In this document: one piece after another, positions 1 through 18,616 of the stretch
How positions within the stretch are numbered: the stretch's first letter is position 1
How the letters are laid out: each line of letters begins with the position of its first letter
Virus record (IMG/VR): IMGVR_UViG_3300025319_000119
Coordinates: 1-21,085 of that record
Length of the DNA: 21,085 nucleotides
Origin: a virus
Reading direction: 5' to 3' (one strand)
Translations under genes and position numbers: made by a program
The notes under the pieces: model-generated
The model's database searches: none
What the model was told of the DNA's origin: nothing
The model's input: the letters and a program-made list of their open reading frames with translations, nothing else

Positions 1-2
1 AG

Positions 3-44
3 CTTCGCGACATGACCCGCGCGCTCGCCAAGGCAGCGCGCTAG
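3..44 (+). CDS. C-terminal tail of an upstream gene (5'-truncated)
   Basis: The frame that reads LRDMTRALAKAAR and stops at TAG 42-44 has G/C in most third codon positions, as in the genes downstream, so it is probably the last 13 codons of an upstream gene. In tailed phages the gene before the portal block is often the large terminase subunit, but 13 residues cannot identify it. A second frame stays open to TGA 68-70 with a less typical third-position pattern. The 35 bases from here to the next start contain a GTGAGGA ribosome binding site. Confidence 0.4.
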   Translation, partial: LRDMTRALAKAAR

Positions 45-79
45 AGTCGATCCGTCATCCCCTACCGTGAGGACCGCCC

Positions 80-2605
80 ATGAGCACCCGTGAAGCAACC
101 GACCTCCTGAAAGCCTCGCAGCTCGGCCTCTTCGGCGGTGGTGGCGGTGGAGGCGGCGAGCGCCCCGGCCACAAGTACATCAAGCGCACGGGCGCTCCGG
201 GCAGCTACCACTACGACTACGGCAACACGGCGAGCGGCAAGCCGATCCAAGGCTCGTTCGACCACGCGGCTCACGCCTCGTTCGGCGGGCAGGACCACGC
301 CGACGCCGCGAGCGCGCACGCCGGAGTCGTCAACGACATCATCGACACGCACGAAGACTCCGCCGACCGGCGTGAGCACCTCGACAAGCACCGCGCCGAG
401 ATGCACAAGCATGCCGACGCGGCCGCCAAGTTCGGCAACCCCGCCGCCGGGCTCCCCTACGCCGACAAGCCGCGCAACACGCCGCGCCCCGAGGCGACCA
501 AGCCCGGCGATGCCGTCAACGCGGCGCGCGCGGCCGCGAACGACCTCTCCGCCGATGCCCATCGCATCGGCGCCGCGGCGAACAAGCGATCCAACCCCGC
601 ACATCACGAGCTGGCAGCGACGGCCCACGACAAGGCCGCGGCCGCGCACGTCTCCGGCCCGCTGGCGACCGAGCACCGCGACGCCGCGAAGAGCCACCGC
701 GACGAAGCCGCCGGGTTCAAGCACCTCGCCGGCGAGCGGAAAGCGGCGAAGAAGGCGAAGGCAGCGGCCGCCGCTGCGCCGAAGGCGCCCGATCCCGTCG
801 ATGAGGCTCACGGCGTCGCCAGCAAGGCGGTGCAGAAGACCATGGCGGCGCGCGAGGCGTCGGCCAAGGCCGACAAGAGCGGCGACAGCACCGACCACCA
901 GCTCGCGCACGCGGCGCACAAGGCTGCCGGTCACGCGCAGCGCGAGGCTTCGTCGGCGTTCGAGAAGCCCGGCGCGAGCGTGAGCATCGGCGGCACCAAG
1001 TTCTCCACGCTCCACGAGAACATGGCGAAGGAGCACGACGAGAAGGCGCACGGTCATTGGATCGATTCCGTCAACGCGCGCTCCGACGAGCAGGGCGAGC
1101 CCGCGTCGGCCGCCGCGACGCACAAGGTCGGCGGCGAGGCCAAGTCGCACGTCGACAAGCTGCACGAGGCCGTCGCGAACCTCAAGCCGGAGAAGATGAC
1201 GAAGAGGGAGCACTTCGAGGGCGCGCACGCGAAGTTCAAGGCGCTGCACGACCACCTCGAGACGAAGCTCGGCTTCCACGAGGCGACCGCGCATGCGAGC
1301 AAGGCCGCCGGGCTCGCCGACATGGCGACGCATTCGATGGGCTCATCGACGGACAAGGCGTCGCACCGTCACGCCCGCGAGGTGCTTGGCGAAGCGCAGG
1401 AGCGCGCGAAGCGCGCCGTCGAGACCGCGCCGGAGCACGTGCGGAAGGCGCCGACGCAGGGACGCCACCAAGAGGCGGCCGCCGAGGCTGCGGGCGGAGG
1501 CGAGAAGCCGCCCCCGAAGCCGAAGAAGAGCGGCGCCGTGAGCATCGGCGAGACCTCGAGCGGCAAGACGATCCACGCCACGCACGCGAGCGCCGAGGAC
1601 TTCAACAAGCACACGAAGGGGTGGAGCGGGAAGGACCACGAAGAGGCCGCCATCGCGCACCGCTCCACGCGCTCGCACCACACCTTCGCCGCGGACAAGA
1701 TCGCGAGGGGCCGGACGGAGGGCGCCGACAAGTCGCACGCCACGCACCGCGCCCTCTCCGAGCACCACGGCGACATGACCGGCGCTCACGAATCCGTCGC
1801 CAGCTCCGAGCGCGTGAAGGCCACCGGCGAGAAGCCGAGTGGGCCGCGGTCGTGGGATCAGATCGCGCACGACGGCGTGAAGGACGCCTTCAAGTCGGCG
1901 GACGAGGGGCACAAGATGCGCGGCTACTCGCCCGACATGCACAAGAGCCCCGAGGGCAAGGGCGCTCCCAAGTTCGACGCGAAGGAGAACGCGGCGCTCG
2001 AGGCCCGCGTGCGAGGTCACATGGGCAAGAGCATGGATCACGAGGTGGGCATCTCCCGCTTCCAAGACCGCTCCGCCGGCCCGCCGGCACCGGCCGGCCT
2101 GTACGACGGGCTCGGCGCCGGCATGGTCGACACCACCGTGGATCGCCCGCGCTGGATCCGCGCGCCCGAGGCCGCTCCCGTCGGCGCTGGCGCGCGTGGC
2201 GTGCTCGACGCCGACCCGGCCCGGCACACGCTCGCCTACCAGAAGCCGCGGCAGCACGGCGCCACCCTCGAGCTGGCGAAGAGCGCCGTCGTCGCGGCCG
2301 TGAAGGACGGCTACCGGCAGCAGCTCATGCAGGCGGAGGACAACCCCGTCGCCAAGATGATCGCGCGCTCGGTCCAGCCGGGGCAGCGCCCCACCGTGTC
2401 GCTCGATCTGCGCAAGAGCATGGCCGCCGGCGAGCCCGACCCCGATGCCGTCGTCGCCTTCGCCGCGGCCGCCCTCGCGTCGGCCAGCGAGCGCAACCCG
2501 CAGCTCCGCGAAGGGCTCTCGCGCCTCGCCGTGACGCGGCGTACCCTGCGGGAGACCCTCGCCGCTCTGCGGCTCACACCCGCCGGCGTGTCCGCGGGCT
2601 ACTAG
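80..2605 (+). CDS. His/Ala-rich helical phage protein with N-terminal GHKYI module, function unknown
   Basis: This 841-residue protein is not recognised. Residues 19-26 are eight glycines, followed by GHKYIKR (30-36) and a Gly/Tyr-rich stretch ending near residue 47. The same module occurs in the MuF polyprotein downstream (residues 532 on). Residues ~55-640 are rich in Ala, His, Lys and Glu, with His recurring every few residues in a pattern like long helices. A VSIGxT segment occurs twice (residues 301 and 487), each followed by a His-rich helical stretch, which suggests an internal duplication. Residues ~640-841 are less repetitive and end in a helical tail. The start is ATG 80 with GTGAGGA just upstream; the portal start follows the stop by 12 bases. 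Its place before the portal and the shared module suggest a virion or ejected protein; this is inference. Confidence 0.85.
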   Translation: MSTREATDLLKASQLGLFGGGGGGGGERPGHKYIKRTGAPGSYHYDYGNTASGKPIQGSFDHAAHASFGGQDHADAASAHAGVVNDIIDTHEDSADRREHLDKHRAEMHKHADAAAKFGNPAAGLPYADKPRNTPRPEATKPGDAVNAARAAANDLSADAHRIGAAANKRSNPAHHELAATAHDKAAAAHVSGPLATEHRDAAKSHRDEAAGFKHLAGERKAAKKAKAAAAAAPKAPDPVDEAHGVASKAVQKTMAAREASAKADKSGDSTDHQLAHAAHKAAGHAQREASSAFEKPGASVSIGGTKFSTLHENMAKEHDEKAHGHWIDSVNARSDEQGEPASAAATHKVGGEAKSHVDKLHEAVANLKPEKMTKREHFEGAHAKFKALHDHLETKLGFHEATAHASKAAGLADMATHSMGSSTDKASHRHAREVLGEAQERAKRAVETAPEHVRKAPTQGRHQEAAAEAAGGGEKPPPKPKKSGAVSIGETSSGKTIHATHASAEDFNKHTKGWSGKDHEEAAIAHRSTRSHHTFAADKIARGRTEGADKSHATHRALSEHHGDMTGAHESVASSERVKATGEKPSGPRSWDQIAHDGVKDAFKSADEGHKMRGYSPDMHKSPEGKGAPKFDAKENAALEARVRGHMGKSMDHEVGISRFQDRSAGPPAPAGLYDGLGAGMVDTTVDRPRWIRAPEAAPVGAGARGVLDADPARHTLAYQKPRQHGATLELAKSAVVAAVKDGYRQQLMQAEDNPVAKMIARSVQPGQRPTVSLDLRKSMAAGEPDPDAVVAFAAAALASASERNPQLREGLSRLAVTRRTLRETLAALRLTPAGVSAGY

Positions 2606-2617
2606 CGGAGGCCGACG

Positions 2618-4348
2618 GTGTTGGATCTCATCAAGCCAGAGCAGATCCGCGCCATGATGGCGACGGCGATCGAGTCGAAGCTGTCGCAAGCCGTGCATGA
2701 CGCCACCGGCGAGGCGATCGAGCGGCTCGTCGAGGCGCAGATCCAACAGCAGCTCGGCCCGATGCTCGGCGGCATGCTCAACAAGGCAGAGCCCGGCGCC
2801 CCGCGCCCCGGCCAGCTCCAACAGACGACGGCCGCCGACCCCAAGGGCTTGCTCTACGACCCGTTCACCGCGCTCGATCAGATGGGCTTCCGCGAGCGGC
2901 CGAGCGCGCTCACGTTCCGCACCCTCGGCGAGATGGCCCGGCGCGTCCCGCCGTTCTCCGCCTACTTGCAGACGCGCTTGAACCAGATGGCGGCGTTCTG
3001 CGAGCCGCAACCCGACGAGCACAGCGTCGGGTTCAAGTTCGTGCTCAAGGACAAGCGCCAAGACCTCTCCAAGAAGCTCCAACGCCGCGCTGACGAGCTG
3101 TCGAGGTGGATGATCGGCATGGGAGATCCAGAGCTGACCATCAAGCGCGACAAGTTCGGCGCGTGGATGCGCAAGTCGATGTGGGACAGCCTCGTCTACG
3201 ATCAGTTCACGACGGAGATCGTGCCGCGCAAAGACGGCAACGCGCCCGCGTACCTGCGCGCGCTCGACGCGGCGACCATCCGCGTATCGGACACGCTCGA
3301 CGAGGTGGACTACCTCGACGAGTCGATCCAATACGTGCAGATTTACGACGACACGATCATCGCGGAGTTCACCGAGCCCGAGATGATCTTCGGCATCCGC
3401 AACCCGCGCAGCGACATCCGCTACAGCGGCTACGGCATGCCCGAGCTTGAGATGCTGATCAGCATCGTCACCGCGCTCCTGTGGGGCATCGACTACAACG
3501 CCAAGTTCTTTTCGCAGGGCTCGGTCGCGAAGGGCTTGCTCAACTTCAAGGGCGCCATCCCCGAGAAGGAGCTGATCGCGTTCCGTCGTCAGTGGTACGC
3601 GATGATCACCGGCGTGCAGAACGCTTGGCGCACGCCCGTCGTGAACGCCGAGGACGTTCAGTGGTTGAACATGCAGACGAGCAACCGCGACATGGAGTTC
3701 GCGGCTTGGATCGATTGGCTCCTCAAGGTGACGTGCGCCGTGTGCCAGATCGCCCCCGAGGAGATCGGCTTTCAGTTCGGCAACGGCGGGCAGACGTCGG
3801 CGATGTCCGAGGGCTCGCAGGCCGACAAGCTCTCGCAGTCGAAGGACAAGGGGCTCGTGCCGCTGGCGAAGTTCGTGTGCGAGCAGCTCAACGACAAGGT
3901 GGTGAGCAAGCTCGACGACCGATTCAGGATCGAGTTCGCCGGCGTGAACGCGCGCACCGCCGAGGCGCTCATCGACTTGCAGACGAAAGAGGTCAAGAGC
4001 GTCAAGACCGTCAACGAGGTGCGCAAGGAGCGCGGCGAAGATCCGCTCCCCGAGTCGCTCGGCGACGTCATTCTCGATCCAACTTGGCTCCAATGGGCGA
4101 ACGCCAAGGCCGCCGAGAAGCAACAGGCGCAGCAAGGCGGGCAGGGCTACGGCACGCCGCCGGGCTCGCCGCAGATGGACGGACAGCCGCCGTGGGCGGA
4201 CGCTCCCGGCGGCTCGGACGACGGCTCGCAAGGCGACGTTGACCCGGACGGCGCCGGAGGCGACGATGCGGTCCAGAAGAGCGGCTACGGCCTCTCTCGC
4301 GCGCAAGGGCGCGCTCTCCGCGTGCTGGATCTCGAGGTCGACTTGTGA
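2618..4348 (+). CDS. Phage portal protein (HK97/SPP1-like portal superfamily)
   Basis: The 576-residue protein should form the dodecameric ring at the capsid vertex through which DNA is packaged and ejected. Portal-like features are a helical N-terminus, a central core with NPRSDIRYSGYG (262-273) followed by a long helix (AKFFSQGSVAKGLL, 295-308), and a late segment TVNEVRKERGEDPLPE (464-479), the typical 'T-hNEhR...G..PLP' portal motif. The tail after ~500 is rich in Gln, Gly, Pro and Asp and likely disordered. I use GTG 2618 as the start: GCGGAGG lies 5-6 bases upstream; TTG 2621 is the alternative. The stop overlaps the GTG start of the next gene. The order portal, MuF protein, protease, capsid supports the call. 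Confidence 0.93.
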   Translation: MLDLIKPEQIRAMMATAIESKLSQAVHDATGEAIERLVEAQIQQQLGPMLGGMLNKAEPGAPRPGQLQQTTAADPKGLLYDPFTALDQMGFRERPSALTFRTLGEMARRVPPFSAYLQTRLNQMAAFCEPQPDEHSVGFKFVLKDKRQDLSKKLQRRADELSRWMIGMGDPELTIKRDKFGAWMRKSMWDSLVYDQFTTEIVPRKDGNAPAYLRALDAATIRVSDTLDEVDYLDESIQYVQIYDDTIIAEFTEPEMIFGIRNPRSDIRYSGYGMPELEMLISIVTALLWGIDYNAKFFSQGSVAKGLLNFKGAIPEKELIAFRRQWYAMITGVQNAWRTPVVNAEDVQWLNMQTSNRDMEFAAWIDWLLKVTCAVCQIAPEEIGFQFGNGGQTSAMSEGSQADKLSQSKDKGLVPLAKFVCEQLNDKVVSKLDDRFRIEFAGVNARTAEALIDLQTKEVKSVKTVNEVRKERGEDPLPESLGDVILDPTWLQWANAKAAEKQQAQQGGQGYGTPPGSPQMDGQPPWADAPGGSDDGSQGDVDPDGAGGDDAVQKSGYGLSRAQGRALRVLDLEVDL

Positions 4349-4722
4349 AGCTCCTGCGGTCCCTCAAGCTGCTCATCTCCGGCGACGTCGAGGCGCAGAA
4401 GCTCTTTGACCCCGGCAACATGGATCGTTCCGAGGACTTGGCTACCGTCGTGTCCTACGAGAACAGCGGCATGCGCAAGGTCGCCGCGGGCGTCGTTGGC
4501 GCCATCATCCCGTTCGGTGGCGTGACCACCGCCGGCTTCGTCCTCGTCGCCAGCGACAAGGACATCAACGTGCGCATCAACGGCGGCGCGGAGAACATCG
4601 CCGTCAAGAAAGCAACGAGCGGCCGCGGCGTCCTCTATCTCGAGGGCGCCGTCACGGCGCTCGTGGTAGACAACCCCGGCACCGAAGACGCGACCGTGTT
4701 GTACGCGCTCACGGGCGTGTAG
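4345..4722 (+). CDS. Small virion-associated protein, unknown function
   Basis: This 125-residue protein starts at GTG 4345, inside the portal stop codon (GTGA overlap), which implies translational coupling. After a basic N-terminus (MKLLRSLKLL) it contains alternating hydrophobic segments (for example AGFVLVASDKDINVRI and GVLYLEGAVTALVV) that suggest a compact beta-rich domain. There is no catalytic motif, Cys pair or clear transmembrane segment. Lying between portal and MuF protein it could be a decoration, fibre or connector protein, but I do not recognise the family. Confidence 0.8.
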   Translation: MKLLRSLKLLISGDVEAQKLFDPGNMDRSEDLATVVSYENSGMRKVAAGVVGAIIPFGGVTTAGFVLVASDKDINVRINGGAENIAVKKATSGRGVLYLEGAVTALVVDNPGTEDATVLYALTGV

Positions 4723-4767
4723 CATCGGATCTCGAACCACTACGGGCGTGCCCCGAAGGAGACGCAG

Positions 4768-5175
4768 ATGACCTTGAAGACGACCCTCACCCCTGCCGAG
4801 CACGCCAACGTCGTGCAGGGCTTGCAGATGCCCCTCGACGTCACCGGCTCGCAAGCCGGCGCCATCTCGACGGGCACGAAGCAGCAGTTCCTCGCCGACG
4901 GCCCCATGGCGATCCGCAACCTCCGCGCGCGCCTCGGCACGTGCGGTACCGGCGCCGGCCCGTCCGTCGTCGAGGTCAAGAAGAACGGCGTCGTCGTGGC
5001 GTCGGTCTCGATCGCGCACGACGCCGTGGACCCCGCGCAGCTCGTCGGGCTCCCGACGACCGACGCGCTGGCGAAGGTGGAGGCGGGCGACCTCATCGAG
5101 ATCGCCGTCTCGGCCGTCGCGACTGCGGCCGCGGACCTCACGGCCACGGCGCACGTCGATCGCCGCTTCGAGTGA
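4768..5175 (+). CDS. Beta-sandwich-like virion protein, unknown function
   Basis: This 135-residue protein starts at ATG 4768 with a good GAAGGAG site at 4755-4761. The pattern VVEVKKNGVVVASVSI, then a loop, then VEAGDLIEIAVSAVAT and DLTATAHV resembles jelly-roll or Ig-like modules common in phage decoration, fibre and tail proteins ('hhVxhxKNGxxh...h..GDxhxhxV'). There is no enzyme motif. It follows the 125-residue gene by 45 bases; the pair may be related decoration or fibre components. The structural reading is inference from pattern. Confidence 0.8.
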   Translation: MTLKTTLTPAEHANVVQGLQMPLDVTGSQAGAISTGTKQQFLADGPMAIRNLRARLGTCGTGAGPSVVEVKKNGVVVASVSIAHDAVDPAQLVGLPTTDALAKVEAGDLIEIAVSAVATAAADLTATAHVDRRFE

Positions 5176-5185
5176 GCTGCGCGCC

Positions 5186-5446
5186 GTGAAGGCCCGCATC
5201 CGTGTCGAGCTACCGCCCGGCGTCGAGGACACCCCCGACGTTCGGGCGAAGCTCGCTTCGGCGGTTGCAGCGCGGCTCGGCGTGGACCCGCACGCGGGAT
5301 GCACGCACGGCGACCTCGAGAAGAGTGAGAAGGCCCCGCCGAAGCTCCGGCACCGGGCGCCGCAAGAGGGCATCGATCGGGCGACCAAGCTCTACGAGAA
5401 CCTCATGGGCGCCATGATCGACGACATCGCCGCGGCCTTGAAGTAG
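5186..5446 (+). CDS. Small hypothetical phage protein
   Basis: This 86-residue protein starts at GTG 5186, ten bases after the preceding stop. No strong ribosome binding site is visible, so coupling to the upstream gene is likely. The N-terminal half (KARIRVELPPGVEDTPDVR) looks like a small alpha/beta fold; the C-terminal part (GIDRATKLYENLMGAMIDDI) is helical. The family is not recognised. Codon use matches the neighbours and the gene fills the space between two well-supported genes, which is the main reason for calling it. Confidence 0.7.
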   Translation: MKARIRVELPPGVEDTPDVRAKLASAVAARLGVDPHAGCTHGDLEKSEKAPPKLRHRAPQEGIDRATKLYENLMGAMIDDIAAALK

Positions 5447-5467
5447 CGCCGCGGAGGAGAACCCCGC

Positions 5468-8400
5468 GTGGCGTTGTGGACGGCCGAGAAGCTGCAAGCG
5501 GTGCGCGCGATCATCGCGCGTTACCACGCAGCCATCGCCATCGCCGTCTTCGGCCACAAGGCCCTCCCGCCCGACCTCCTGAAAGACCTCCGCGGCGCCG
5601 GCGTCGCCGTCCCTGACGGCCCGCAGCTCATCGACGACGCCTTCGCCTACGGCCAGCTCGTCGCGCTCTTGCGCGACCCGAAGCTCGCGACGAAGAGCCC
5701 GGCGGAGATCGCCAAGCTCGTCGAGGAGCGCAAGCTCCCGTTGCAGCTCTCGCAGCAAGAGAAGGCGTCCGTCGAGGTCGCGCGCCAGCACGCGGGCCAG
5801 TACGTCGTCGGGCTCGGCACGCGCGTCGCCGGGCAAGTCATGGCGGCCGTCACCGGCGCCGAGGCGAACCTCACGCCCGAGCGCATGGTGGAGATCATCG
5901 CCGACAAGACCGCCGGCAACCGCGCGCGGCGCGAGACGATCGACAGCCTTCGATCCGACCTCGGGCACGCGATGGGCAACTGGACCCGTGATTGGCAGCG
6001 CATCGCCATGACGGAGAGCAACAACGCGATCCAAGAAGGCACGGCGAGCACGATCGAGAAGCAGGACGGCGCCGAGCAGCTCGTGTCGAAGATGCCGCGC
6101 CCCGACGCCTGCCCCGACTGCAAGCGGCTCTACCTGCGCGGCGGACAGCCGATCATTTTCAAGCTCTCCGAGCTGCGCGCGAACGGCTCCAACGTCGGCC
6201 GCAAGAAGCGCGATTGGAAGCCGACGATCGAAGCGATCCACCCGTGGTGCGGATGCGTGCTCGTGCGCGTCCCCGCAGGCATGGAATGGATCGACGGCGA
6301 GCTGCAACCGAAGAAGGCGGAGCCGGACGAAGAGAGCGACGAAGGCGCGCAAGGCGACGCCGCCATCGTGCGCGGCATGAAGGCCGCCGTCGAGAAGAGC
6401 GAGCGCCCGCTCGAGAAGGCCGCCCGCAAGCTCCACGGGCGCCTGACGTTCGCCGGCATGCCGATCTCGATCGAGAACCGCCGCGGCTCGCTGCGCCATT
6501 GGTACGACCCCGTGGCGAAGGAGAAGGGCGCCACGAAGGTGCGCTACCCCTACGGCTACATCCGGCTCACCGAAGCCGCCGACGGCGAGCACGTCGACTG
6601 CTACATCGGCCCCGACAAGCACGCGACGAGCGTGTACGTCGTCCACCAACAGAAGAAGAAGCCGGATGGATCTTTCGGCGGCTACGACGAGGACAAGTGT
6701 TTTCTCGGCTTCGCATCGGCCAGCGAGGCGAAGGCCGCATACCTCGCGCACTACAACGATCCGAGGTTCTTCGGGTCGATGACGGCCATGACGGTGCCGG
6801 AGTTCAAGCGCAAGCTCGTCGAGAAGAAGGGCGAGAAGCTCACCAAGGCGGACCCGCTCGTGATCGACATGCGGCTCGAGAAGGGCGGCACCGATCCCTG
6901 CCCACGTTGCGGCGCGATGACGCGGCTCTCCGACACCGACGGCGCCGAGCCGTGCTGGACGTGCCGCAAGGCGCTCGAGGCCGCTGGCACGCCCTACAGG
7001 CGCGCGGGGTGGGACTACGAGAACGACCGCTGGCAGAAGAGCTACGGCGCCGAGCGCGCGGGCCACAAGTACATCTCGCGACGCCGCGGCGTCGACGGGT
7101 CGTGGGAGTACAAGTACGCCGAGCCCGCGCCGCACGCGCAGCTCGCCCTCGACTTCACGCCACCGAAGCCGGAGGCCGAGCAACGGCACGAGGCGGGCGA
7201 GGCCGGCGTGAACCTCGACAACTACTTCGCGTCGGGCTCCAACCATGAAGGCGAGATCCAAGGGTTCGCGTCGATCGGCTGGAACGTCGGTGTCGCCGCC
7301 CACGAGGTGAGCGACGACGCCGTGCGCGCGCTCCACGCGCTCAAGGGCACGCGAACCAAGGTGTTCGTCGACAGCGGCGCGTTCTCCGAGGTCGACTTCA
7401 ACTTCCCCGCGCGGAAGGACAACGCGAAGAAGGGGATCAAGGCCGGCGACCTCCCCTACCCCGACAAGCCGATCGGGCCGCTCGTCGTGGCGCCCATCTC
7501 CGACGCCGAGTGGACGAAGCGGCTCGACCTCTACGACAGCCTCGCGTCCTCGCTCGGCCGCCAGCTCTACGCCGTCGCCCCCGATCAGGTGGCGTTCCAA
7601 GACGAGACCGCCGACCGCCTCGCCAAGTACGCCGACCGCGTGCGCGAGATCCACGCGAAGGGCGCGAACATCCTCGTGCCGTTGCAGAAGGGGAAGCTCT
7701 CCCTCGCCGACTTCGACGACAAGGCTCGATCCATCCTCGGCTTCGACGACTACATCCGCGCCATCCCCATGAAGAAGGACGCCACGACGACGGCGGAGTT
7801 CGAGGCGTTCATGGCGGCGAAGAAGCCCGCGCGCGTCCACCTCCTCGGGCTCGGGAAGGAGAGCGACCGCTACGATGAGGTCATGGCGGCCGCCAAGCGC
7901 GCATCGCCGGCGTCCGAGGTGTTCCTCGACAGCGTGAAGATCACGAGCGCCGTCGAGCGATCCAAGCCGACGAAGGCCGGCGGATGGTCGCGGCCGCGCA
8001 AGCTCACCGCCGCCACCGACCGGACGATCAAGCGCCTCGCTGGCGAAGCGTTCGAGCGCGAGGAGTACCACGAGAACATTTCCTATCCCGGCGAGTGGCT
8101 CCCGCCGAAGCAACGCGCCGCCGTCGGCGCTCGCGCAAGGCTCTCCCTGAAAGAGATGAGCGCGTTCAAGAAAGATCCAACGAAGTTTCTCGAGGATCTG
8201 CGAGCGGCCGACAAGGCGGAGACGACCGACAACCGCCAAGCCGTCATGCTTCACGTGCTCGAGGCGGAGCTGAACAGCGCGTGGTCCGTTCACTTCGCCG
8301 GCATCCCCGGCGCCGAGATCGAGCAGCACCACGGCAAGGGCACCGTGACCGAGAGGAAGCGCGACGCCATCGTCGAAGCCTTCGGCGGCGGCAAGCTCGC

Positions 8401-9124
8401 CCACCTCAAGACGCGCGCCGAGATCATGCACGAGCACGCGATGGTCGACAGCGGCCGCCCCGTGCCCGCCCACCGCATCGAGGCCGACTACCGATGGGAG
8501 GGCCGTCACGACGCCGAAGCCGAGCACCGCGAGGCCATCTCGCACGCGCTCCACGCGCACGAGATGTCGGCGCCCGAGTACACGAAGCTCCACGAGGCCG
8601 ACTACGGCCCGGTCGCGGACTTCTACAAAGATCCATTCCGCGGGCCGTTCCTCTCTGACGTCGAGAAGCCAAAGATCCGAGACGCGATCGACGTGCTCAA
8701 GAGCGCCGCCGAGGCCCTTGAGCAGCTCGGCAGCTCGCCCGCGCGGCTCGGTATGATGAGCTGGCGAGGGAACGAAGACTCCCCGCGGCCGGAGCGTCCG
8801 GCGAACATCGTCGGGATCTCCGACGAGATGGGGCTCACCGTGAAGGGGAAGAAGAAGCGGAAGAAGCAGCGCGACGAGGGCAAGGCCGTCGCGCGCGCGA
8901 GCCGCCTCTCTCCCGAGGATCGGTTCAAGCCGGCGAAGCGGATGCGCAAGCCGCCGAAGGGCGTGCAGCACTTCGCACCCGACACGCTCAAGGACGCGCG
9001 CGAGGGCGCGCGCGAGGGCGCAGAGGTGAAGCGCGAACGCATCCGCGATGACCTCGCACGTCGACAAGCGAACAAGCCGCCCATGGATCCCGTGCGCATC
9101 GCGCGCGCCCGAGGCGAAGCCTGA
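5468..9124 (+). CDS. MuF-type head morphogenesis polyprotein with pyrophosphatase-like and TGT-like domains
   Basis: This 1218-residue multidomain protein starts at GTG 5468 with GGAGGAG upstream. Residues ~100-265 match MuF/SPP1-gp7 head morphogenesis proteins: RIAMTESNNA (177-186), CPDC (215-218) and HPWCGC (258-263). Residues ~328-452 resemble the pyrophosphatase-like domain of phage polyvalent proteins: YGYI (362-365), DGEHVDCYIGP (372-382; D372, E374, D377 at the catalytic acidic positions of family I pyrophosphatases) and YDEDKCFLGF (406-415). C478/C481 and C496/C499 form a zinc-ribbon-like knuckle. GHKYI (532-536) begins a module shared with the 841-residue protein. Residues ~580-835 look like a TGT-superfamily barrel: VDSGAF with D635, PDQ with D706, LQKG (739-742), VHLLGLG (790-796) and LDS with D821. 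The remainder is helical, then very basic (KGKKKRKKQR), with no recognised function. Most MuF proteins are much shorter. TGATG links it to the next gene. Confidence 0.88.
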   Translation: MALWTAEKLQAVRAIIARYHAAIAIAVFGHKALPPDLLKDLRGAGVAVPDGPQLIDDAFAYGQLVALLRDPKLATKSPAEIAKLVEERKLPLQLSQQEKASVEVARQHAGQYVVGLGTRVAGQVMAAVTGAEANLTPERMVEIIADKTAGNRARRETIDSLRSDLGHAMGNWTRDWQRIAMTESNNAIQEGTASTIEKQDGAEQLVSKMPRPDACPDCKRLYLRGGQPIIFKLSELRANGSNVGRKKRDWKPTIEAIHPWCGCVLVRVPAGMEWIDGELQPKKAEPDEESDEGAQGDAAIVRGMKAAVEKSERPLEKAARKLHGRLTFAGMPISIENRRGSLRHWYDPVAKEKGATKVRYPYGYIRLTEAADGEHVDCYIGPDKHATSVYVVHQQKKKPDGSFGGYDEDKCFLGFASASEAKAAYLAHYNDPRFFGSMTAMTVPEFKRKLVEKKGEKLTKADPLVIDMRLEKGGTDPCPRCGAMTRLSDTDGAEPCWTCRKALEAAGTPYRRAGWDYENDRWQKSYGAERAGHKYISRRRGVDGSWEYKYAEPAPHAQLALDFTPPKPEAEQRHEAGEAGVNLDNYFASGSNHEGEIQGFASIGWNVGVAAHEVSDDAVRALHALKGTRTKVFVDSGAFSEVDFNFPARKDNAKKGIKAGDLPYPDKPIGPLVVAPISDAEWTKRLDLYDSLASSLGRQLYAVAPDQVAFQDETADRLAKYADRVREIHAKGANILVPLQKGKLSLADFDDKARSILGFDDYIRAIPMKKDATTTAEFEAFMAAKKPARVHLLGLGKESDRYDEVMAAAKRASPASEVFLDSVKITSAVERSKPTKAGGWSRPRKLTAATDRTIKRLAGEAFEREEYHENISYPGEWLPPKQRAAVGARARLSLKEMSAFKKDPTKFLEDLRAADKAETTDNRQAVMLHVLEAELNSAWSVHFAGIPGAEIEQHHGKGTVTERKRDAIVEAFGGGKLAHLKTRAEIMHEHAMVDSGRPVPAHRIEADYRWEGRHDAEAEHREAISHALHAHEMSAPEYTKLHEADYGPVADFYKDPFRGPFLSDVEKPKIRDAIDVLKSAAEALEQLGSSPARLGMMSWRGNEDSPRPERPANIVGISDEMGLTVKGKKKRKKQRDEGKAVARASRLSPEDRFKPAKRMRKPPKGVQHFAPDTLKDAREGAREGAEVKRERIRDDLARRQANKPPMDPVRIARARGEA
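8996..9019 (+). repeat. Tandem 12-base repeat (2 copies)
   Basis: The unit GCGCGCGAGGGC occurs twice back to back inside the polyprotein gene and encodes AREG AREG in its C-terminal helix. It is a minor in-frame duplication, probably from slippage. Confidence 0.75.
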
Positions 9125-9345
9125 TGCGCTGCCCCGTCTGCAACGCCAACCTCTTGCAGAAGAGCGACGGCAAGCTCAAGGTCCGCGTGCCGATCCTCGT
9201 CTTCTCCGCCGACGGCACGACGTGCGTGACCAACTGCCAGCGCTGCAAGGCAGAGATCCCCATCCCCGTCACGCTCGCAAAGAGCGCGTGCCCCGCGGAT
9301 GAACCGGCGCCGAAGCTCGTAACGACGCGCTTGACGCGCCCGTGA
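9124..9345 (+). CDS. Small zinc-ribbon protein
   Basis: The 73-residue protein has two Cys pairs, CPVC (residues 3-6) and CQRC, about 35 residues apart, separated by a beta-rich segment (KLKVRVPILVF). This is the layout of a treble-clef or rubredoxin-like zinc ribbon. Small zinc-ribbon proteins near head genes occur in Mu-like phages (for example Com), but I see no more specific match and do not claim that function. ATG 9124 shares its A with the last base of the polyprotein stop (TGATG), so translation is probably coupled. The terminator follows 60 bases after the stop. Confidence 0.75.
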   Translation: MRCPVCNANLLQKSDGKLKVRVPILVFSADGTTCVTNCQRCKAEIPIPVTLAKSACPADEPAPKLVTTRLTRP

Positions 9346-9360
9346 TCCAGCCTCTAGCCT
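9331..9360 (+). promoter_or_regulatory. Candidate sigma70-type promoter upstream of the capsid genes
   Basis: TTGACG (9331-9336) and TAGCCT (9355-9360) are separated by 18 bases, fitting the loose TTGAC / TAGNNT pattern of many high-G+C bacteria. It overlaps the end of the zinc-ribbon gene. A transcript from here would carry the 9405-9444 hairpin in its leader, so it would need antitermination or read-through. This is a weak motif match. Confidence 0.25.
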
Positions 9361-9404
9361 GACCACCGGACCCAACGGCCTAGACCACGAACGGTCACAA
9401 GAGG

Positions 9405-9444
9405 CGGGCGGTACTGCGAAAGCGGTGCCGCCCGTTTTCGTTTT
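9405..9444 (+). terminator. Intrinsic terminator before the prohead protease gene
   Basis: A 13-base stem (9405-9417 with 9422-9434, two G-T wobbles, otherwise fully paired) closes on a GAAA tetraloop (9418-9421) and is followed by TTTTCGTTTT (9435-9444). The T-tract touches the AGGAGA ribosome binding site of the protease gene, whose GTG start is 12 bases further on. It would end transcripts of the portal/MuF block or act as an RNA-processing or attenuation hairpin for the capsid block. The 111-base gap (9346-9456) otherwise shows only the weak promoter candidate. Confidence 0.88.
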
Positions 9445-9456
9445 AGGAGATCCAAG

Positions 9457-10329
9457 GTGCGAGAGACCGAGAGCACATTCGCCTTCGACTTCGAGATGGA
9501 GGCGTTCGAGAAGGCCGGCGTCGCTCCCGAGAAGGCGCGGCGCATCGGTGGCTTCGTGTCCACCGCGGATCTCGACAAGCAGAACGAGCGCGTGCTGCAA
9601 GAGGGGCTCGACTTCTCCCCGTTCCTCGCCGACGGGTGGTTCAACGACAACCATTCCAAGGCGACGGCCGACATCGTGGGCTTCCCCGAGACGGCGAAGC
9701 TCATCCGCAAGGGCGAGCGCATGCCGAGCGGCTCGCACGCCGACCGCACCGGGTGGTTCGTCGAGGGCTACCTGCTCCAAGGCCATCCGCCGAGCGACAA
9801 GCTGTGGGATCTCGCGCAGTCGTTGCAGAAGACGCCGCGGCGCCTCGGCTTCTCCGTCGAGGGCCGCGTCACGCAGCGCATGAGCAAGGCCGGCGAGCCC
9901 ATCGTCGCGCGCGCCATCGTCAAGAACGTCGCGATCACCAACTGCCCGGTGAACAACCGCACCGCGCTCGAGGTGCTCGCCAAGAGCTTGAGCGCCGTCG
10001 AGATGAGCAAGGCGCTCGAGGCCGGCGGCGGCGAAGACGGCGACGGCGGCGGCACCCCCGGCAGCGGCCGGGCGCTCATGCCTGAATCGCTCGGCGGCTA
10101 CACCAACGCCATCGGCTTTCGCGCGCCCGTCGGCTCGCCGCGCGGCGCGGCGCCCGCCGGGTTCACCGAAGCGTCGGCCAACGGCGCGCAGCCGGCGTCG
10201 TCGAAGAAGAAGAAGCGCAAGAAGCTCACGAAGAGCGAGGCGCTCAAGCTGATCCACGGCCGGTACCCCGGCATCACCACCACGACGGCAGCACGGATCT
10301 TTCAGTTCGTCGTCTCACACGCCGCCTGA
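9457..10329 (+). CDS. Prohead (procapsid) maturation serine protease
   Basis: The 290-residue protein resembles HK97-type prohead proteases (peptidase family S78), which cleave scaffold and capsid N-termini during head maturation. WFNDNHSKATADIVG contains the probable catalytic His66, and LGFSVEGRV contains the probable nucleophile Ser133. The following ARAIVKNVAITNCPVN strand is typical of the fold. The core ends near residue 185. The remaining ~100 residues are a Gly/Asp linker, a basic tract (SKKKKRKK, about 246-253) and a helical tail (LTKSEALKLI...), an extension beyond the usual core that could be scaffold-like or DNA-binding. The start GTG 9457 is supported by TAGGAGA at 9444-9450. Scaffold and capsid genes follow directly. 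Confidence 0.9.
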   Translation: MRETESTFAFDFEMEAFEKAGVAPEKARRIGGFVSTADLDKQNERVLQEGLDFSPFLADGWFNDNHSKATADIVGFPETAKLIRKGERMPSGSHADRTGWFVEGYLLQGHPPSDKLWDLAQSLQKTPRRLGFSVEGRVTQRMSKAGEPIVARAIVKNVAITNCPVNNRTALEVLAKSLSAVEMSKALEAGGGEDGDGGGTPGSGRALMPESLGGYTNAIGFRAPVGSPRGAAPAGFTEASANGAQPASSKKKKRKKLTKSEALKLIHGRYPGITTTTAARIFQFVVSHAA

Positions 10330-10358
10330 CCGGCGGACCCCACAAACGGAGCAAGAAC

Positions 10359-11270
10359 ATGGCGAAGCGCACGACCACCCCCACCATCGACGACGAGCCC
10401 ATCGTGAAGGCGGACATGGATTCCGAGGAAGGCGAGGCCGAAGGCGCCGCCGAGAACGATGAGGACGACGACGGCATCGACGACGAGGACGACGAGATCG
10501 ACGAGGACGCCGCGAAGAGCGATCTCACCGAGGACACGCTCGTCAAGGCGCTCGACGAGATGGACAACATCGCCAACGCCTCGGCCAACGGCGTCAACCC
10601 GCGCGAGCGCGAGCTGGCGGCGAAGCTCGCGTCCGGCACCCCCCTCACCAAGTCGGAGCGCGCCGAGATGTCGTCGTTCGCCGACGACACCACCACGCTC
10701 GAGAAGAGCAACCGGGAGACGTTCATGGAGAATCCGCAGATCGCGCAGGGCTTCGAGGTGTCCGACTTCCTCGACGCCGCTCTCACCAAGGTCGCCGAGG
10801 CGCTCGACAACAGCCGCGAGGAGATGACCAAGAGCTTCTCCGAGGTCGGCGAGTTCAACCGCGCGCTGGCGAAGAGCCTCAACGCGCTCGGCGCCGTCGT
10901 CATCTCGCAGGACAAGGAGATCCGCGCGCTCAAGAAGAGCCTCGCCGGCGTCTCCACGGCCAGCGTCGAGGCGGCTCCCGCCAAGGGCGTCGCGCGCACC
11001 AGCGTCGGCCAGAAGGTCAACGACAGCGGCGCGATCCGCAAGTCGCAGGGCGGCAAGGGCAACGACGTGCAGCTCACGAAGGGCGTGATCTTGCAGACCC
11101 TCGACGAGCTGCTCGAGAAGAGCGAGGGCAAGCAAGGCGTCGTCGACGGCGTGGATCTCGTCCTCGAGTCGAGCCGCTACGAGACCACGCAGCTCCTCTC
11201 CCCCGACGCCATGCGCCTCGTCTGCAAGGCGCGCGGCATCGACCCCACCACCCTCGGGCTCAACGCCTAG
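10359..11270 (+). CDS. Probable capsid scaffold / head assembly protein
   Basis: The 303-residue protein lies between protease and major capsid protein, where a scaffold is expected. Residues ~12-55 are a very acidic tract (runs of Asp/Glu). Residues ~55-175 are predicted helical with coiled-coil character (for example DALTKVAEALDNSREEM), then a Ser/Ala/Lys linker and a C-terminal helical region (LQTLDELLEKSEG...). An acidic, helical, low-complexity protein in this position fits a scaffold that the protease removes. No enzyme motif is seen. ATG 10359 is preceded by ACGGAGC. The role rests mainly on position and composition. Confidence 0.8.
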   Translation: MAKRTTTPTIDDEPIVKADMDSEEGEAEGAAENDEDDDGIDDEDDEIDEDAAKSDLTEDTLVKALDEMDNIANASANGVNPRERELAAKLASGTPLTKSERAEMSSFADDTTTLEKSNRETFMENPQIAQGFEVSDFLDAALTKVAEALDNSREEMTKSFSEVGEFNRALAKSLNALGAVVISQDKEIRALKKSLAGVSTASVEAAPAKGVARTSVGQKVNDSGAIRKSQGGKGNDVQLTKGVILQTLDELLEKSEGKQGVVDGVDLVLESSRYETTQLLSPDAMRLVCKARGIDPTTLGLNA

Positions 11271-11308
11271 CCGGCGTCGCTCACCACCCTCACCTCTCAC
11301 AAAGATCC

Positions 11309-11316
11309 AAGGAGAT
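11309..11316 (+). promoter_or_regulatory. Strong ribosome binding site of the capsid gene
   Basis: AAGGAGAT lies six bases before ATG 11323 in a locally A/T-rich leader (AAGGAGATAATCAC). It is the closest match to the consensus in the window and fixes the capsid protein start. Confidence 0.75.
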
Positions 11317-11322
11317 AATCAC

Positions 11323-12765
11323 ATGAGCTACGGAACCTTCGTCGGAACCTCCGACTACGACGGCATCGAGGGCTTCGGCTCGGCGAGCGCCGAGGAGATG
11401 CAGAACCTCAACAAAGCCTTGCGCTCGGGGCAAGAGCGCAACGCGCCCGGAGCGGTGGTCGCCGGCGACGGCTTCACCCTCAAGCCGGAGTCGCTCGACC
11501 GCACGTTGAAGAACGTGACGTACCGGATGGAGCACATCCAGTTCTGGAAGTTCCTCGACAAGACCCCGGCCTACAACACGGTCGAGGAGTACAGCCGGCT
11601 CCGTGAGTACGGCAACGGCGTCGCGGCCTTCATCGAGGAAGGCGAGCTGCCCGCCGAGGACGACGCGACCTACTCGCGTGAGTTCAACATCGTGAAGTAC
11701 ATGGGCACGACCCGGCGCATCACGCACGTGATGCAGACGGTGCGCACCCACATCGGTTCCGCGGTCGCGCAGGAGACGGTGAACGGCACGATGTGGCTCT
11801 TGCGGCAGGTGGAGAAGGCGCTCTTCTACGCCGACAGCAACCTCGTCCCGGCCGAGTTCGACGGCCTCTTCGCGCAGCTCGAAGCGCAGTCGCCCAACGT
11901 GGTCGACATGCGCGGCAAGCCGCTCAACCAAGACGTCATCGAAGAGGCGGCGCACGTCATCCGCGCCTCGCCCAACTACGGCATCCCGACGGATCTGTGG
12001 ATGGCCGATGGCGTCTACAGCGACCTCGCCCGGCTCTTCTACCCGACGCAGCGGTCGGAGATCCCGGTCCCGGCCGGCGGCGGCGACGGCTACGTCGGCT
12101 TCGCGGTGAAGGGCATGCGCACGCAGGCTGGCCCGATCCGCTTCCAGCCCGACGTGTTCATCGAGCCCGGTCGCGCGCCCATCGCGGCCGGCGTCGGCGA
12201 CATCGCCAAGCGCCCCGGCGTGCCCACCATCGGCGTCGGCGCCGCGGGCGCTCCCGGCGGCGGCGAGACCTCGCTCTTCATCGCGACGGACGCGGGCGAC
12301 TACCGCTACCGCGTCGTGGCGAAGAACCGCTACGGCCTCTCCATCCCCGTCGACGTGAACGGCGGCGCCGCCATCACCGTCGCCGCGGGACAGAAGGTGT
12401 CGTTCACGATCACCGACGGCTCGCCGTTGGCGTCGTGCTACGTCATCTCCCGCACGAAGGTGAACGGTCTGCTCGCCGAGGCCGTCGAGATGATCACCGT
12501 GAAGCGCACGGGCGCCGTCACGAGCTTCGGGGATCTCAACCGTGACCTCCCCGGCACCACGAAGGCCGCGCTGTTGCAGGGCAACCGCGAGAACATCATG
12601 GTGAAGCAGCTCGCGCCGTTCACGCGCATCCCGCTCGCCACCGTCGACACGTCGATGCGTTGGTCGCAGGTGCTCTACCTGACGCTCACGCTGCACAGCC
12701 CGAACAAGAACGTGCTGTTCAAGAACGTCGGCCGCATCGACGGGACGAAGAACCTCGCCGTCTGA
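11323..12765 (+). CDS. Major capsid protein (HK97 fold) with probable Ig-like insertion
   Basis: The 480-residue protein is placed as major capsid protein by gene order and by features such as the N-arm/E-loop-like region FIEEGELPAEDDATYSREFN (103-122), the long spine helix (THIGSAVAQETVNGTMWLL, 142-160) and the P-domain-like segment VIEEAAHVIRASPNYGIPTD. Residues ~300-405 are a Gly-rich linker plus a beta-sandwich-like stretch (DYRYRVVAKNRYGLS, AAGQKVSFTI, SCYVISRT) that looks like a fibronectin III or Ig-like insertion, probably on the capsid surface. The end (RWSQVLYLTLTLHSPNKNVLF) returns to the capsid core. ATG 11323 has the best ribosome binding site in the window (AAGGAGAT, 11309-11316), fitting the most abundant product. 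A terminator follows. Confidence 0.88.
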   Translation: MSYGTFVGTSDYDGIEGFGSASAEEMQNLNKALRSGQERNAPGAVVAGDGFTLKPESLDRTLKNVTYRMEHIQFWKFLDKTPAYNTVEEYSRLREYGNGVAAFIEEGELPAEDDATYSREFNIVKYMGTTRRITHVMQTVRTHIGSAVAQETVNGTMWLLRQVEKALFYADSNLVPAEFDGLFAQLEAQSPNVVDMRGKPLNQDVIEEAAHVIRASPNYGIPTDLWMADGVYSDLARLFYPTQRSEIPVPAGGGDGYVGFAVKGMRTQAGPIRFQPDVFIEPGRAPIAAGVGDIAKRPGVPTIGVGAAGAPGGGETSLFIATDAGDYRYRVVAKNRYGLSIPVDVNGGAAITVAAGQKVSFTITDGSPLASCYVISRTKVNGLLAEAVEMITVKRTGAVTSFGDLNRDLPGTTKAALLQGNRENIMVKQLAPFTRIPLATVDTSMRWSQVLYLTLTLHSPNKNVLFKNVGRIDGTKNLAV

Positions 12766-12769
12766 TCGG

Positions 12770-12798
12770 GTGACGCCGGCATGAGTGCCGGCTAGGAT
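12770..12798 (+). promoter_or_regulatory. Candidate promoter for the post-capsid genes
   Basis: GTGACG (12770-12775) and TAGGAT (12793-12798) are 17 bases apart, resembling TTGAC / TAGNNT. Transcription would begin inside the 5' arm of the following terminator, so the new RNA would lack the hairpin. A small perfect hairpin (12775-12792) fills the spacer. It is a weak motif match. Confidence 0.25.
12775..12792 (+). other. Small perfect hairpin after the capsid gene
   Basis: GCCGGCA (12775-12781) and TGCCGGC (12786-12792) pair perfectly around a TGAG loop, ten bases after the capsid stop and six bases before the larger terminator. No T-tract follows, so alone it is more likely to protect the mRNA 3' end or to be an operator-like inverted repeat. 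Confidence 0.6.
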
Positions 12799-12842
12799 GG
12801 GCCGCTGCACGGACACGATCCGAGCAGCGGCCCTTCCCTTTT
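12799..12842 (+). terminator. Intrinsic terminator after the major capsid gene
   Basis: A perfect ten-base stem (12799-12808 with 12824-12833) continues, after an A-A mismatch, as a four-base stem (12810-12813 with 12819-12822) around a CACGA loop. TTCCCTTTT follows. The T-tract merges into the GAGGAG ribosome binding site of the next gene, repeating the arrangement at 9405-9457. The two hairpins bracket the protease-scaffold-capsid block. Confidence 0.85.
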
Positions 12843-13661: not shown

Positions 13662-13994
13662 ATGATCATCCGAGGTGGAATCCCCAAGCCGCTCCGCGGC
13701 ACGGCACCGGCCGTGCCGGGGGCACCCCTCGCTGACGCGAACGCGCTCGCGCCGTTTCAGTTCCTTGCGGAGCAGAAGACGGTGTGGACGCGCATCGACA
13801 ACATCGGGGCGAACCCGCTGCGCGTGTACCCGCAGAACCCCGGCTTGGATCCCGCCGGCGCCGGCTGGCAGCTCTACTACGAGATCGCACCCGCGGGCTT
13901 CCTTGAGGGCATGTTCGAGTTCACCGATCTGTGGCTCGCTGGCAGCGGAGGAACCACCACGTTCAAGGCCCTCATGGGCTTGCGCGTGCTGTAG
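13662..13994 (+). CDS. Small virion protein, unknown function
   Basis: The 110-residue protein starts at ATG 13662, three bases after the previous stop. It contains an aromatic-rich beta pattern (FQFLAEQKTVWTRIDNIGANPLRV ... WQLYYEIAPAGF) and ends in a Gly/Thr-rich strand (TTTFKALMGLRVL). The pattern suggests a beta-sandwich virion protein similar in style to surface or fibre-attachment proteins. No motif allows a firmer call. It lies in a chain of small structural genes of common codon use. Confidence 0.72.
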   Translation: MIIRGGIPKPLRGTAPAVPGAPLADANALAPFQFLAEQKTVWTRIDNIGANPLRVYPQNPGLDPAGAGWQLYYEIAPAGFLEGMFEFTDLWLAGSGGTTTFKALMGLRVL

Positions 13995-14012
13995 CGCGCC
14001 GAGAGGTGCGCC

Positions 14013-14300
14013 ATGCCGCTTGTCAGACGGAAAGCCCTGCCGGCAGCAGACGCTCGAGAGGGCGTCTTGCTGGCCGGCGTGGTGGACGGCGTGAACCTCA
14101 CCTTCACCACGCCGGATGCGTTCATCCACGCCCCTCCGGGGCTCTCCGCGCGCGTCCACCTCAACGGCCAGCGGTTGCTCCTCACCGACGACTACACCGT
14201 CGCCGAGTCGGGCGGACCCGGCACCGGGTTTGATACGGTGGTGCTGCTTCACGCGCCCGTGGCGGGCGACAAGGTATTCGCGGACTACTTTGTAGTCTGA
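14013..14300 (+). CDS. Small beta-rich virion protein ('NG...DY' domain)
   Basis: The 95-residue protein has the widespread phage tail/virion pattern DGVNLTFTTPDAFIHAP, ARVHLNGQRLLLTDDYTV, then a Gly-rich turn and VVLLHAPVAGDKVFADYFV. This fits 'DGxNxxFxTP...hxhhNGxxLxxxxDY...h.L..xPxxGDxhxhxY' modules found in fibre, baseplate and decoration proteins. The C-terminus of the next protein carries a related segment. ATG 14013 is preceded by GAGAGG. It is likely a small structural component; the exact location in the virion cannot be told. Confidence 0.78.
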   Translation: MPLVRRKALPAADAREGVLLAGVVDGVNLTFTTPDAFIHAPPGLSARVHLNGQRLLLTDDYTVAESGGPGTGFDTVVLLHAPVAGDKVFADYFVV

Positions 14301-14314
14301 AAGGTTGGATCACC

Positions 14315-15853
14315 ATGGCTCGCACGTTTGTCCGGCAGGAATCGCAGATCCGCCCGTCGTTCACCTACGACGACACGCTCGCCGCCGGCATCGCCTTGCA
14401 GACCGGCGCGGCGTCGATCGAGGGCGACCTCAACAGCCTGCGCTCGCAGGTGAAGCGGGCCACCGGCGACGCCAACTGGTACGCCGCGCTCTCCGGCCGC
14501 AGCCTCGCCACGGTCCACACCGACCTCGCCGACATCGAAGGCAAGAAGCAGCTCCGGCGCGTGCAGGTGCTCACCGACGTCTCGGTCACGGCCGCGCAAA
14601 ACTTCGAGCTGCTCTCCGTCGCCGGGGCGGAGGCGCCCACGCTCGTCGCTGCCGTCGCGCTCTCGCAGAACGGCGCCGTCGTCGCGCAGTCCGCGCTCTC
14701 CGGCGCCGGCTTCCTCGTCCATGAGCTGATCGAGCTGGCGGGCCAGAACGCGATCAGCCCGAAGAACCTGTGCATCGTGCGCGACTCCACCACGGGTCAA
14801 AAGATCCAAAGCGCCGGCAAGGACGTGTTCGCGCTCTTGCAGTACGAGAGCACCGGCGCCGACGGCGCCGCCTTCGACGACACGAGCGCCGGAGCGCGCG
14901 TCAAGCTGTCGTTCGTCATCCTGAACGCCGGCCTCGACGACCTCATCGCCTGCCCCGTCGGCGACATCGCCGGCAAGACGATCAACTACGCCTACGTCGC
15001 CCGCATCAACCTCGACGCCATCCCCGAGGATGCGTGGCTTCCCCTCGACGCCAACTTCGTCGATCAGGCCACCGCCGTCGACGTCACGCGCCAGCGCGCC
15101 TACGACAACCAAGCCGCCACCCCCGTCGATCAGCTCACGAGCGCCTTCCTCGATCTCGAGGCGGCCGGGATCAAGTGGTCGATCCGCGACGACCTCGAGG
15201 CCGAGCTGTTCACCGTGCTCGAGGGCAGCGCCGGCGGCACGAGCGAGGTGCAGGTGAAGGCCGACGTCGACGTGTTCAACGTCGATGCCGTGATCAACGA
15301 CTTCAACGCGGGCATCCGCGCGCGCACCGGCGGCACCCGCCCGATCCACGTCGGCGTGAACGACGGCGTGCTCGAGTCGACCGCCGGCGACCTCCGCGTG
15401 CTCGGCGCCGCCGAGCTGCTCCTCGACGACGGCAACCAGACCGGCTCCACGTGGGCGCAGACGAGCGGGATCAAGCTCTCCGACACCACGGCGGAGTGGG
15501 ACGCTTTCGAGACCGCCTTCGGCGAGGTGTCGCTGCTCAACGCCATCGCGCAGGCGTACAACGCGAGCAGCGAAGCGAAGACCTACGCCAACGTCACGGC
15601 CGACGCGAACGAGAACGTCGACGTGAGCCTCGCCGACGGCAACCTCGACGTGGCGCTCCCCGACATGAGCGGCGGCTCGTTCTTGCAGGATTACGACGTG
15701 TTCGTGAACGGCGAGCTGATGCGCCCCGGCGTCGACGCGGCGGCGAACAACGACTACTACCCCGGCACGACGCTCGCGGGCGCGGCGAAGCTCAAGTTCG
15801 AGTTCAAGCTCAAGACCGGCGACGTGCTCTGCGTGATCAAGAAGATCGCCTAA
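14315..15853 (+). CDS. Large virion structural protein, C-terminal 'NG...DY'-like domain
   Basis: The 512-residue protein starts at ATG 14315, with AAAGG upstream and a gap of only 14 bases from the previous stop. The first ~90 residues are helical (TLAAGIALQTGAASIEGDLNSLRSQ written in part), the middle is mixed alpha/beta with repeated Asp/Ala/Val-rich strands (SEVQVKADVDVFNVDAVI), and residues ~460-512 (YDVFVNGELMRPG ... NDYYPGTTL ... KLKTGDVLCVIKKI) resemble the 95-residue protein encoded just upstream. No enzyme, sheath or tape-measure signature is visible. I suggest a major fibre, collar or adsorption-apparatus protein, with low certainty on which. Confidence 0.8.
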   Translation: MARTFVRQESQIRPSFTYDDTLAAGIALQTGAASIEGDLNSLRSQVKRATGDANWYAALSGRSLATVHTDLADIEGKKQLRRVQVLTDVSVTAAQNFELLSVAGAEAPTLVAAVALSQNGAVVAQSALSGAGFLVHELIELAGQNAISPKNLCIVRDSTTGQKIQSAGKDVFALLQYESTGADGAAFDDTSAGARVKLSFVILNAGLDDLIACPVGDIAGKTINYAYVARINLDAIPEDAWLPLDANFVDQATAVDVTRQRAYDNQAATPVDQLTSAFLDLEAAGIKWSIRDDLEAELFTVLEGSAGGTSEVQVKADVDVFNVDAVINDFNAGIRARTGGTRPIHVGVNDGVLESTAGDLRVLGAAELLLDDGNQTGSTWAQTSGIKLSDTTAEWDAFETAFGEVSLLNAIAQAYNASSEAKTYANVTADANENVDVSLADGNLDVALPDMSGGSFLQDYDVFVNGELMRPGVDAAANNDYYPGTTLAGAAKLKFEFKLKTGDVLCVIKKIA

Positions 15854-15868
15854 CGATGAGGTGATCGC

Positions 15869-18460: not shown

Positions 18461-18616
18461 ATGGCGGATCACGAGAACAAGAAGATCGTCGTGGATGGCG
18501 TCGAGGTGCAGCCGGCGAAGAAGGTGAAGCTGCGCGACCACAAGACGAAAGAGGAGATCGACGCGCTGCTCGACAAGAAACGCGCGGAGCTGTCAGAGAA
18601 AGAGGACGCGCCATGA
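18461..18616 (+). CDS. 51-residue charged protein
   Basis: This short gene runs from ATG 18461 to TGA 18614-18616. AGGAG at 18451-18455 sits at good spacing. The product (MADHENKKIVVDGVEVQPAK, then KKVKLRDHKTKEEIDALLDK and an acidic end) is highly charged, with a likely C-terminal helix (KTKEEIDALLDKKRAELSEK). Its stop overlaps the patatin gene start (ATGA), so it is probably co-translated with it. It fills the gap between two real genes and its third codon positions fit. Function is unknown. Confidence 0.72.
   Translation: MADHENKKIVVDGVEVQPAKKVKLRDHKTKEEIDALLDKKRAELSEKEDAP

Follow-up and report, generated by a model that had tools for sequence, protein, structure and literature searches.

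The TGT-like motifs inside a putative phage head protein raise two questions: whether they mark a genuine enzyme of the tRNA-guanine transglycosylase (TGT) superfamily, and what such an enzyme would do in a virion. TGT and DpdA swap guanine for 7-deazaguanine via a covalent Asp intermediate, and the known DNA-modifying transglycosylases are standalone enzymes made after infection. The DNA analyzed here, referred to as the window, comprises the 21,085 bp of IMG/VR virus record IMGVR_UViG_3300025319_000119. A sequence-only reading had proposed that it encodes a TGT/DpdA-like domain inside a MuF head polyprotein, an interpretation that was found to be largely right.

Gene context and architecture of the polyprotein

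The polyprotein (1218 aa) is encoded on the plus strand at 5468-9124, in an unbroken frame with a GTG start and the sequence GGAGGAG upstream. Its gene is located between the portal and capsid genes, more narrowly between those of the portal and the head protease. The features of this region are as follows, where residue numbers refer to the polyprotein:

2618-4348, + strand: portal protein gene (PF04860, E 1.8e-19; phrog_12, E 3e-40)
5468-6340, + strand: MuF-like minor head region, residues ~1-291 (phrog_115 'minor head protein', E 0.0015; phrog_1657 'head morphogenesis', E 0.0029)
6434-6814, + strand: InPase domain of the polyvalent type, residues 323-449 (PF18823, E 4.2e-33)
6899-6964, + strand: Cys4 zinc-ribbon-like segment CPRC...CWTC, residues 478-499 (from sequence)
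7013-8673, + strand: swappable cassette, missing in the sister phage L070 (blastn)
7061-7120, + strand: linker motif GHKYISRRR..GSWEYKY at the cassette start, residues 532-551 (from sequence; recurs in neighboring polyvalent ORFs)
7223-7942, + strand: TGT/DpdA-like (beta/alpha)8 barrel, residues ~586-825, with D635, D706, Q740, H791, and D821 (AF2 model, match to 7ui4, hhalign, invariance)
7943-8386, + strand: helical domain after the barrel, residues ~826-973 (common to L003 and L021; helices in the AF2 model)
8618-9121, + strand: conserved C-terminal tail, residues 1051-1218 (65% identical to the C-terminus of the L070 protein)
9457-10329, + strand: head maturation protease gene (phrog_1028, E 5e-39)
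10359-11270: scaffold-like gene of the head gene module, between the protease and major capsid genes
11323-12765, + strand: major capsid protein gene (phrog_752, E 1.4e-79)

No Pfam match was obtained for the head region (residues ~1-291), and the head parts of relatives of the polyprotein matched minor head or head morphogenesis profiles at E 0.0003-0.02. These weak profile matches, together with the motifs CPDC (residues 215-218) and HPWCGC (residues 258-263) and the gene order, suggest a MuF-like protein. The transglycosylase part of the earlier proposal was supported by the analyses described below; its MuF part draws on weak profile matches and gene order.

The fusion with the transglycosylase domain is not a private assembly join, since two further IMG/VR contigs, whose sample numbers differ, contain window positions 1-10105 (L035) and 240-12807 (L036) with 100% identity. 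An assembly chimera was set aside on the basis of these two contigs and of a codon-position GC that is conserved from the N-terminus to the cassette.

One of these contigs reaches 7.2 kb farther upstream, where a further pair of large polyvalent-type proteins is encoded; an SNF2 helicase is part of one, and LPD1 of the other. Neither the window nor these 7.2 kb contained a base-modification gene. In this genome, which is a fragment, no preQ0 synthesis genes were found among the window ORFs by Pfam, and the QueC and QueD families were unmatched in the L035 contig.

Two minor observations were made in this region. A motif of the form GHKY(I/T)(S/K)R...G.(W/Y).Y.Y occurs near domain junctions in four neighboring large phage proteins (window 80-2605 and 5468-9124; L035:10065-13718 and 13756-17178), as if it marked cassette boundaries. 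Additionally, a patatin-like phospholipase (PF01734, E 5e-21) is encoded at window 18613-19404, where the structural module ends.

Fold of the domain and its kinship to DpdA

An AF2 model was produced for residues 575-1000 of the polyprotein, in which eight beta/alpha units form a barrel with a pLDDT mostly above 90. Structural matches were ranked by VIA-align, which realigned the best 1000 chains of Foldseek, and the best 50 rows were considered. DpdA, the DNA preQ0 insertase (7ui4), ranked first (Z 15.1, rmsd 3.5 over 191 residues), followed at ranks 2-50 exclusively by TGT entries (Z 13.3-13.8). A compact plasmid-borne relative (L029), modelled separately, likewise matched TGT in 50 of its best 50 VIA-align rows (Z 12.2-12.6), and TGT was among its top Foldseek rows (E 4e-5). 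TGT is abundant in the PDB, and therefore the number of such rows is not independent evidence, whereas the lack of any other barrel among the best 50 is. It is extremely improbable that the motifs resemble those of TGT by chance in an unrelated TIM barrel. Although generic TIM barrels, at weak E-values, head the list that Foldseek itself gives for the window model, that explanation is contradicted by the TGT-fold matches of two independent models and by the shuffled-profile control given below. Residues ~586-825 are thus a (beta/alpha)8 barrel of the TGT superfamily. The domain had been placed at residues ~580-835; the barrel indeed lies there, but its end is near residue 825. Next comes the helical domain, which extends to ~973 in the nearest relatives and takes the position where TGTs have their zinc domain. 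By blastp, residues 586-973 share 44% identity with residues 18-362 of the L003 relative and 35% with L021.

A relative with 59% identity (L003) is encoded by a separate 472-aa gene, which lies on a phage contig of 186 kb. A tblastn search from this relative led to 40 plasmids, and a genome scan led to MAGs and isolates, while scans of viral contigs with the L005, L012, L021, and L022 proteins yielded no further relatives. A coherent family of 21 sequences from phages, plasmids, and MAGs was assembled, in which D635, D706, H791, and D821 are unvarying in 21/21. The landmark motifs reported earlier were recovered at their places, namely VDSGAF at V634 (with D635), VAPDQV at V703 (with D706), LQKG at L739, VHLLGLG (with H791), and LDS (with D821). 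They extend beyond chance, as D635, G637, A638, F639, P705, D706, Q711, H791, L793, G794, and D821 are invariant in the 21-sequence alignment. The exception was GFDDY, which is unconserved in the family; the conserved element is the AIPMKK/GIPSN that comes next. The absence of a Cys/His zinc site was also correctly noted, as there is no Cys beyond residue 499.

In the model, the ends of strands 3, 6, and 8 hold D635, P767, and D821, respectively; D706 immediately follows strand 4, Q740 comes after strand 5, and H791 is within strand 7. The invariant residues at the C-terminal strand ends are thereby predicted to line the catalytic face of the TIM barrel, and from these positions the catalytic Asp residues may be close to each other in space. 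That the domain is catalytically dead and only binds nucleic acid or contributes structurally to the connector is very unlikely: the strong divergence from characterized enzymes would agree with it, but the window copy keeps every residue that is invariant in the family, which points to selection on the active site.

The sequence profiles of the domain relate it to DpdA. Pfam, NCBIfam, and PHROGs returned nothing relevant for the window copy, including no match to PF01702 at E 1 and none to phrog_887; individual family members matched phrog_887 'queuine tRNA-ribosyltransferase' at E 1e-5 and 1.5e-5. Of the two profiles from which support had been expected, PF01702 thus gave none, whereas that of phage DpdA did: alignment of the family to eight phage DpdA proteins with hhalign reached 96% locally (score 66) and 95% globally over 202 columns, with D635, D706, H791, and D821 in register. 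Sixty gap-filtered column shuffles reached at most 1.1% and a score of 20.5. The family profile also detected phage 9g DpdA at E 3.7e-4. Searches of PDB sequences with the family profile (hmmsearch), of INPHARED phages with the window and L003 domains (tblastn), and of the phage contigs with PF01702 yielded no matches. An hhalign comparison of the family to 17 bacterial tRNA TGTs was negative (1.7%); however, this result is uninformative, because DpdA itself reached just 0.3% against the same set.

With phage 9g DpdA, the family shares the fold, the DSGAF and D-x-x-GD motifs, an HxxG motif with an equivalent of His196, a D-S/A-x-x-W-like nucleophile motif, and the lack of a zinc site. The family spellings PDVVGDQ, HxLG, and SADANWLRS resemble LDxIGDP, HGFG, and SCDSSSW of DpdA and are unlike those of TGT. 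H791, which aligns with His196, is the counterpart of a conserved histidine that distinguishes DpdA from DpdA2 (Hutinet et al., PMC6884629). In contrast, the family is less than 20% identical to this DpdA and forms a clade apart from the sampled phage DpdAs (support 100/100 in a tree of 29 rows), and the window domain differs further in its fusion into a head polyprotein with no preQ0 genes seen nearby. Kinship with DpdA, and not with tRNA TGT, is therefore indicated by the structure and profile matches, the His196 equivalent, and the missing zinc site, while the domain belongs to a clade of its own, well separated from known DpdA, whose specificity may differ.

A virion-delivered enzyme that modifies tRNA instead, altering or removing the queuosine-type modification of the host and thereby changing translation, appears unlikely. 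The domain does share the (beta/alpha)8 fold, the positions of the catalytic Asp pair, and the Gln-Gly after strand 5 with tRNA TGT (Tgt, PF01702), its model fits tRNA TGTs almost as well as DpdA (Z 13.8 versus 15.1), and the L029 model matched TGT only among its best 50 rows. However, it lacks the zinc domain with its Cys3-His site, its motifs are spelled differently at three sites, and its profile affinity is to DpdA only.

Among the BFVD matches of the window model, the best was A0A6J5LU57 of an uncultured Caudovirales phage (E 2.2e-18, 21% identity over 419 columns), titled 'ART-PolyVal-like domain-containing protein'. Its annotation includes the ART domain, and its title does not mention a barrel; it is probably a second polyvalent phage protein with such a barrel. 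The second match was R9TGF0 of Vibrio phage nt-1 (E 1.6e-6), presumably the DpdA2 of that phage, and an Arthrobacter phage queuine tRNA-ribosyltransferase was matched at 5.7e-4. DpdA2 of nt-1 likewise has a TGT-type fold. It was not found by a family-profile search of the nt-1 genome, and DpdA2 is without the conserved histidine that the family keeps (PMC6884629).

Cassette exchange and the possible role of the domain

The head-protein part of the polyprotein was used in a search that identified a sister phage on a 107-kb contig (L070). By blastn, the two phages are ~80% identical over window positions 2020-7012 and 8674-12557, with nothing aligned between. The encoded proteins correspondingly share residues 1-515 (77%) and 1051-1218 (65%). 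At the position of the transglycosylase module, the sister protein contains an unrelated ParB-like segment (PF08857, E 0.0029; phrog_1033, E 1.5e-4) followed by a further domain. In more distant relatives, the head part stands by itself or is joined to a segment that includes HExxH, and L070, L071, L073, and L074 all show other cargo or none on the conserved N-terminus. Accordingly, a fixed site between the conserved N-terminus, with its MuF-like and InPase parts, and the conserved C-terminus can be filled by different cargoes, of which the transglycosylase domain is one. An upstream 841-aa protein also includes two stretches (window 124-893 and 1337-2019) that are unaligned to L070 and lie between conserved blocks.

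This arrangement is shared with the MuF polyvalent and polymorphic-toxin proteins, which likewise have a head-protein N-terminus, an InPase domain, and an exchangeable effector region, and whose fused enzymes are regarded as effectors that enter the host together with the DNA (PMC5512222; PMC5576092). In the searched text of these two papers, no TGT or queuine cargo was named, and the three 'transglycosylase' mentions shown from PMC5512222 refer to lysozyme-type domains. The domain fills its variable cassette exactly as polymorphic toxin domains do (PMC5576092), and it might by that analogy attack bases of host DNA or RNA, for example through abasic sites or aberrant bases, rather than protect phage DNA. 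Such a toxin-like role is unlikely, as standalone relatives are present on many plasmids with no obvious partner, and as MuF toxins were reported from temperate phages (PMC5576092) while a tyrosine integrase was not found in the sister contigs.

The locus is best explained, with somewhat better than even confidence, by a domain that resembles DNA-guanine transglycosylases, is catalytically intact, belongs to a previously unmodelled DpdA-related subfamily, and forms an exchangeable cargo of a MuF-type minor head protein in a tailed phage. Beyond the fold, the homology to DpdA, the invariance of the catalytic residues, and the cassette exchange, all of which were observed, we infer a DNA substrate, a donor base, packaging, injection, and a protective role, and the domain would then most likely be a virion-associated DNA-guanine transglycosylase effector. 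The MuF part would locate the polypeptide within the capsid, at the portal, from where it may enter the next host with the genome or act during DNA packaging. By homology to TGT and DpdA, the barrel would bind a flipped guanine, D821 would attack the nucleoside C1' to form a covalent intermediate with D635 as the general acid/base, and a 7-deazaguanine from the preQ0/queuosine pool of the host would be inserted. A lone DpdA without preQ0 genes is known in 76 phages (PMC6884629). The resulting mark might protect phage DNA against restriction at the very start of infection. More specifically, a tentative scheme is that a portal-packaged transglycosylase rewrites guanines of the passing or incoming genome with host 7-deazaguanine before restriction, and that the DpdA-like family performs a similar function for large plasmids.

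If the enzyme is built into the head protein, DNA modification could take place in step with packaging or with the opening minutes of entry, the stage at which restriction threatens unmodified DNA most, and the phage may carry a DNA- or RNA-editing enzyme inside its own particle. With this domain, the known cargo of exchangeable MuF/polyvalent cassettes gains a new enzyme class. The superfamily and the idea of delivery are already known. A search of the open-access literature, as distinct from subscription literature, found no description of the subfamily or of a fusion between a head protein and a transglycosylase, a result that does not establish priority.

Relatives on plasmids

DpdA-like proteins were uncovered on many plasmids of Pseudomonas, Shewanella, Alteromonas, and others. 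They are mostly labelled 'hypothetical protein' and were missed by Pfam, NCBIfam, and PHROGs; the plasmid family offers compact proteins that are well suited to tests.

The fusion partners and neighbors of these relatives varied. In the Vibrio campbellii plasmid pIFL1_1 (L008:3503-5158), the TGT-like domain (family profile E 2.3e-18) is located behind a fused DUF6884 with weak similarity to YaaA/PF03883, the family to which DpdC belongs (PMC12839542). This fusion hints at DNA as the substrate. In four unrelated plasmid or genome loci, a gene for a DndC-like/PAPS-reductase PP-loop ATPase lies a few kb from the TGT-like gene (L005:778-2415, L010:1133-2773, L012:4470-5015, and L024:6139-7842; TIGR03183 E 1e-18 to 5e-33, all below its cut-off), and it is a possible functional partner for base or backbone modification. 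Additionally, a QueC-like PP-loop ATPase (L076:1036-1815; PF06508 E 3e-7, over cut-off; SGGADS and CxxC motifs) is encoded ~42 kb from the standalone TGT-like gene on the 186-kb phage contig, where QueD was unmatched.

In the Geoalkalibacter plasmid pGSUB1 (L010:2872-4259), the TGT-like gene is broken over two frames, by either a frameshift or a sequencing error. Fusion into polyvalent proteins also occurs on plasmids, as the Cupriavidus plasmid pMTS3 (L007:2754-9374) encodes a TGT-like domain within a 2206-aa LPD1 polyvalent protein.
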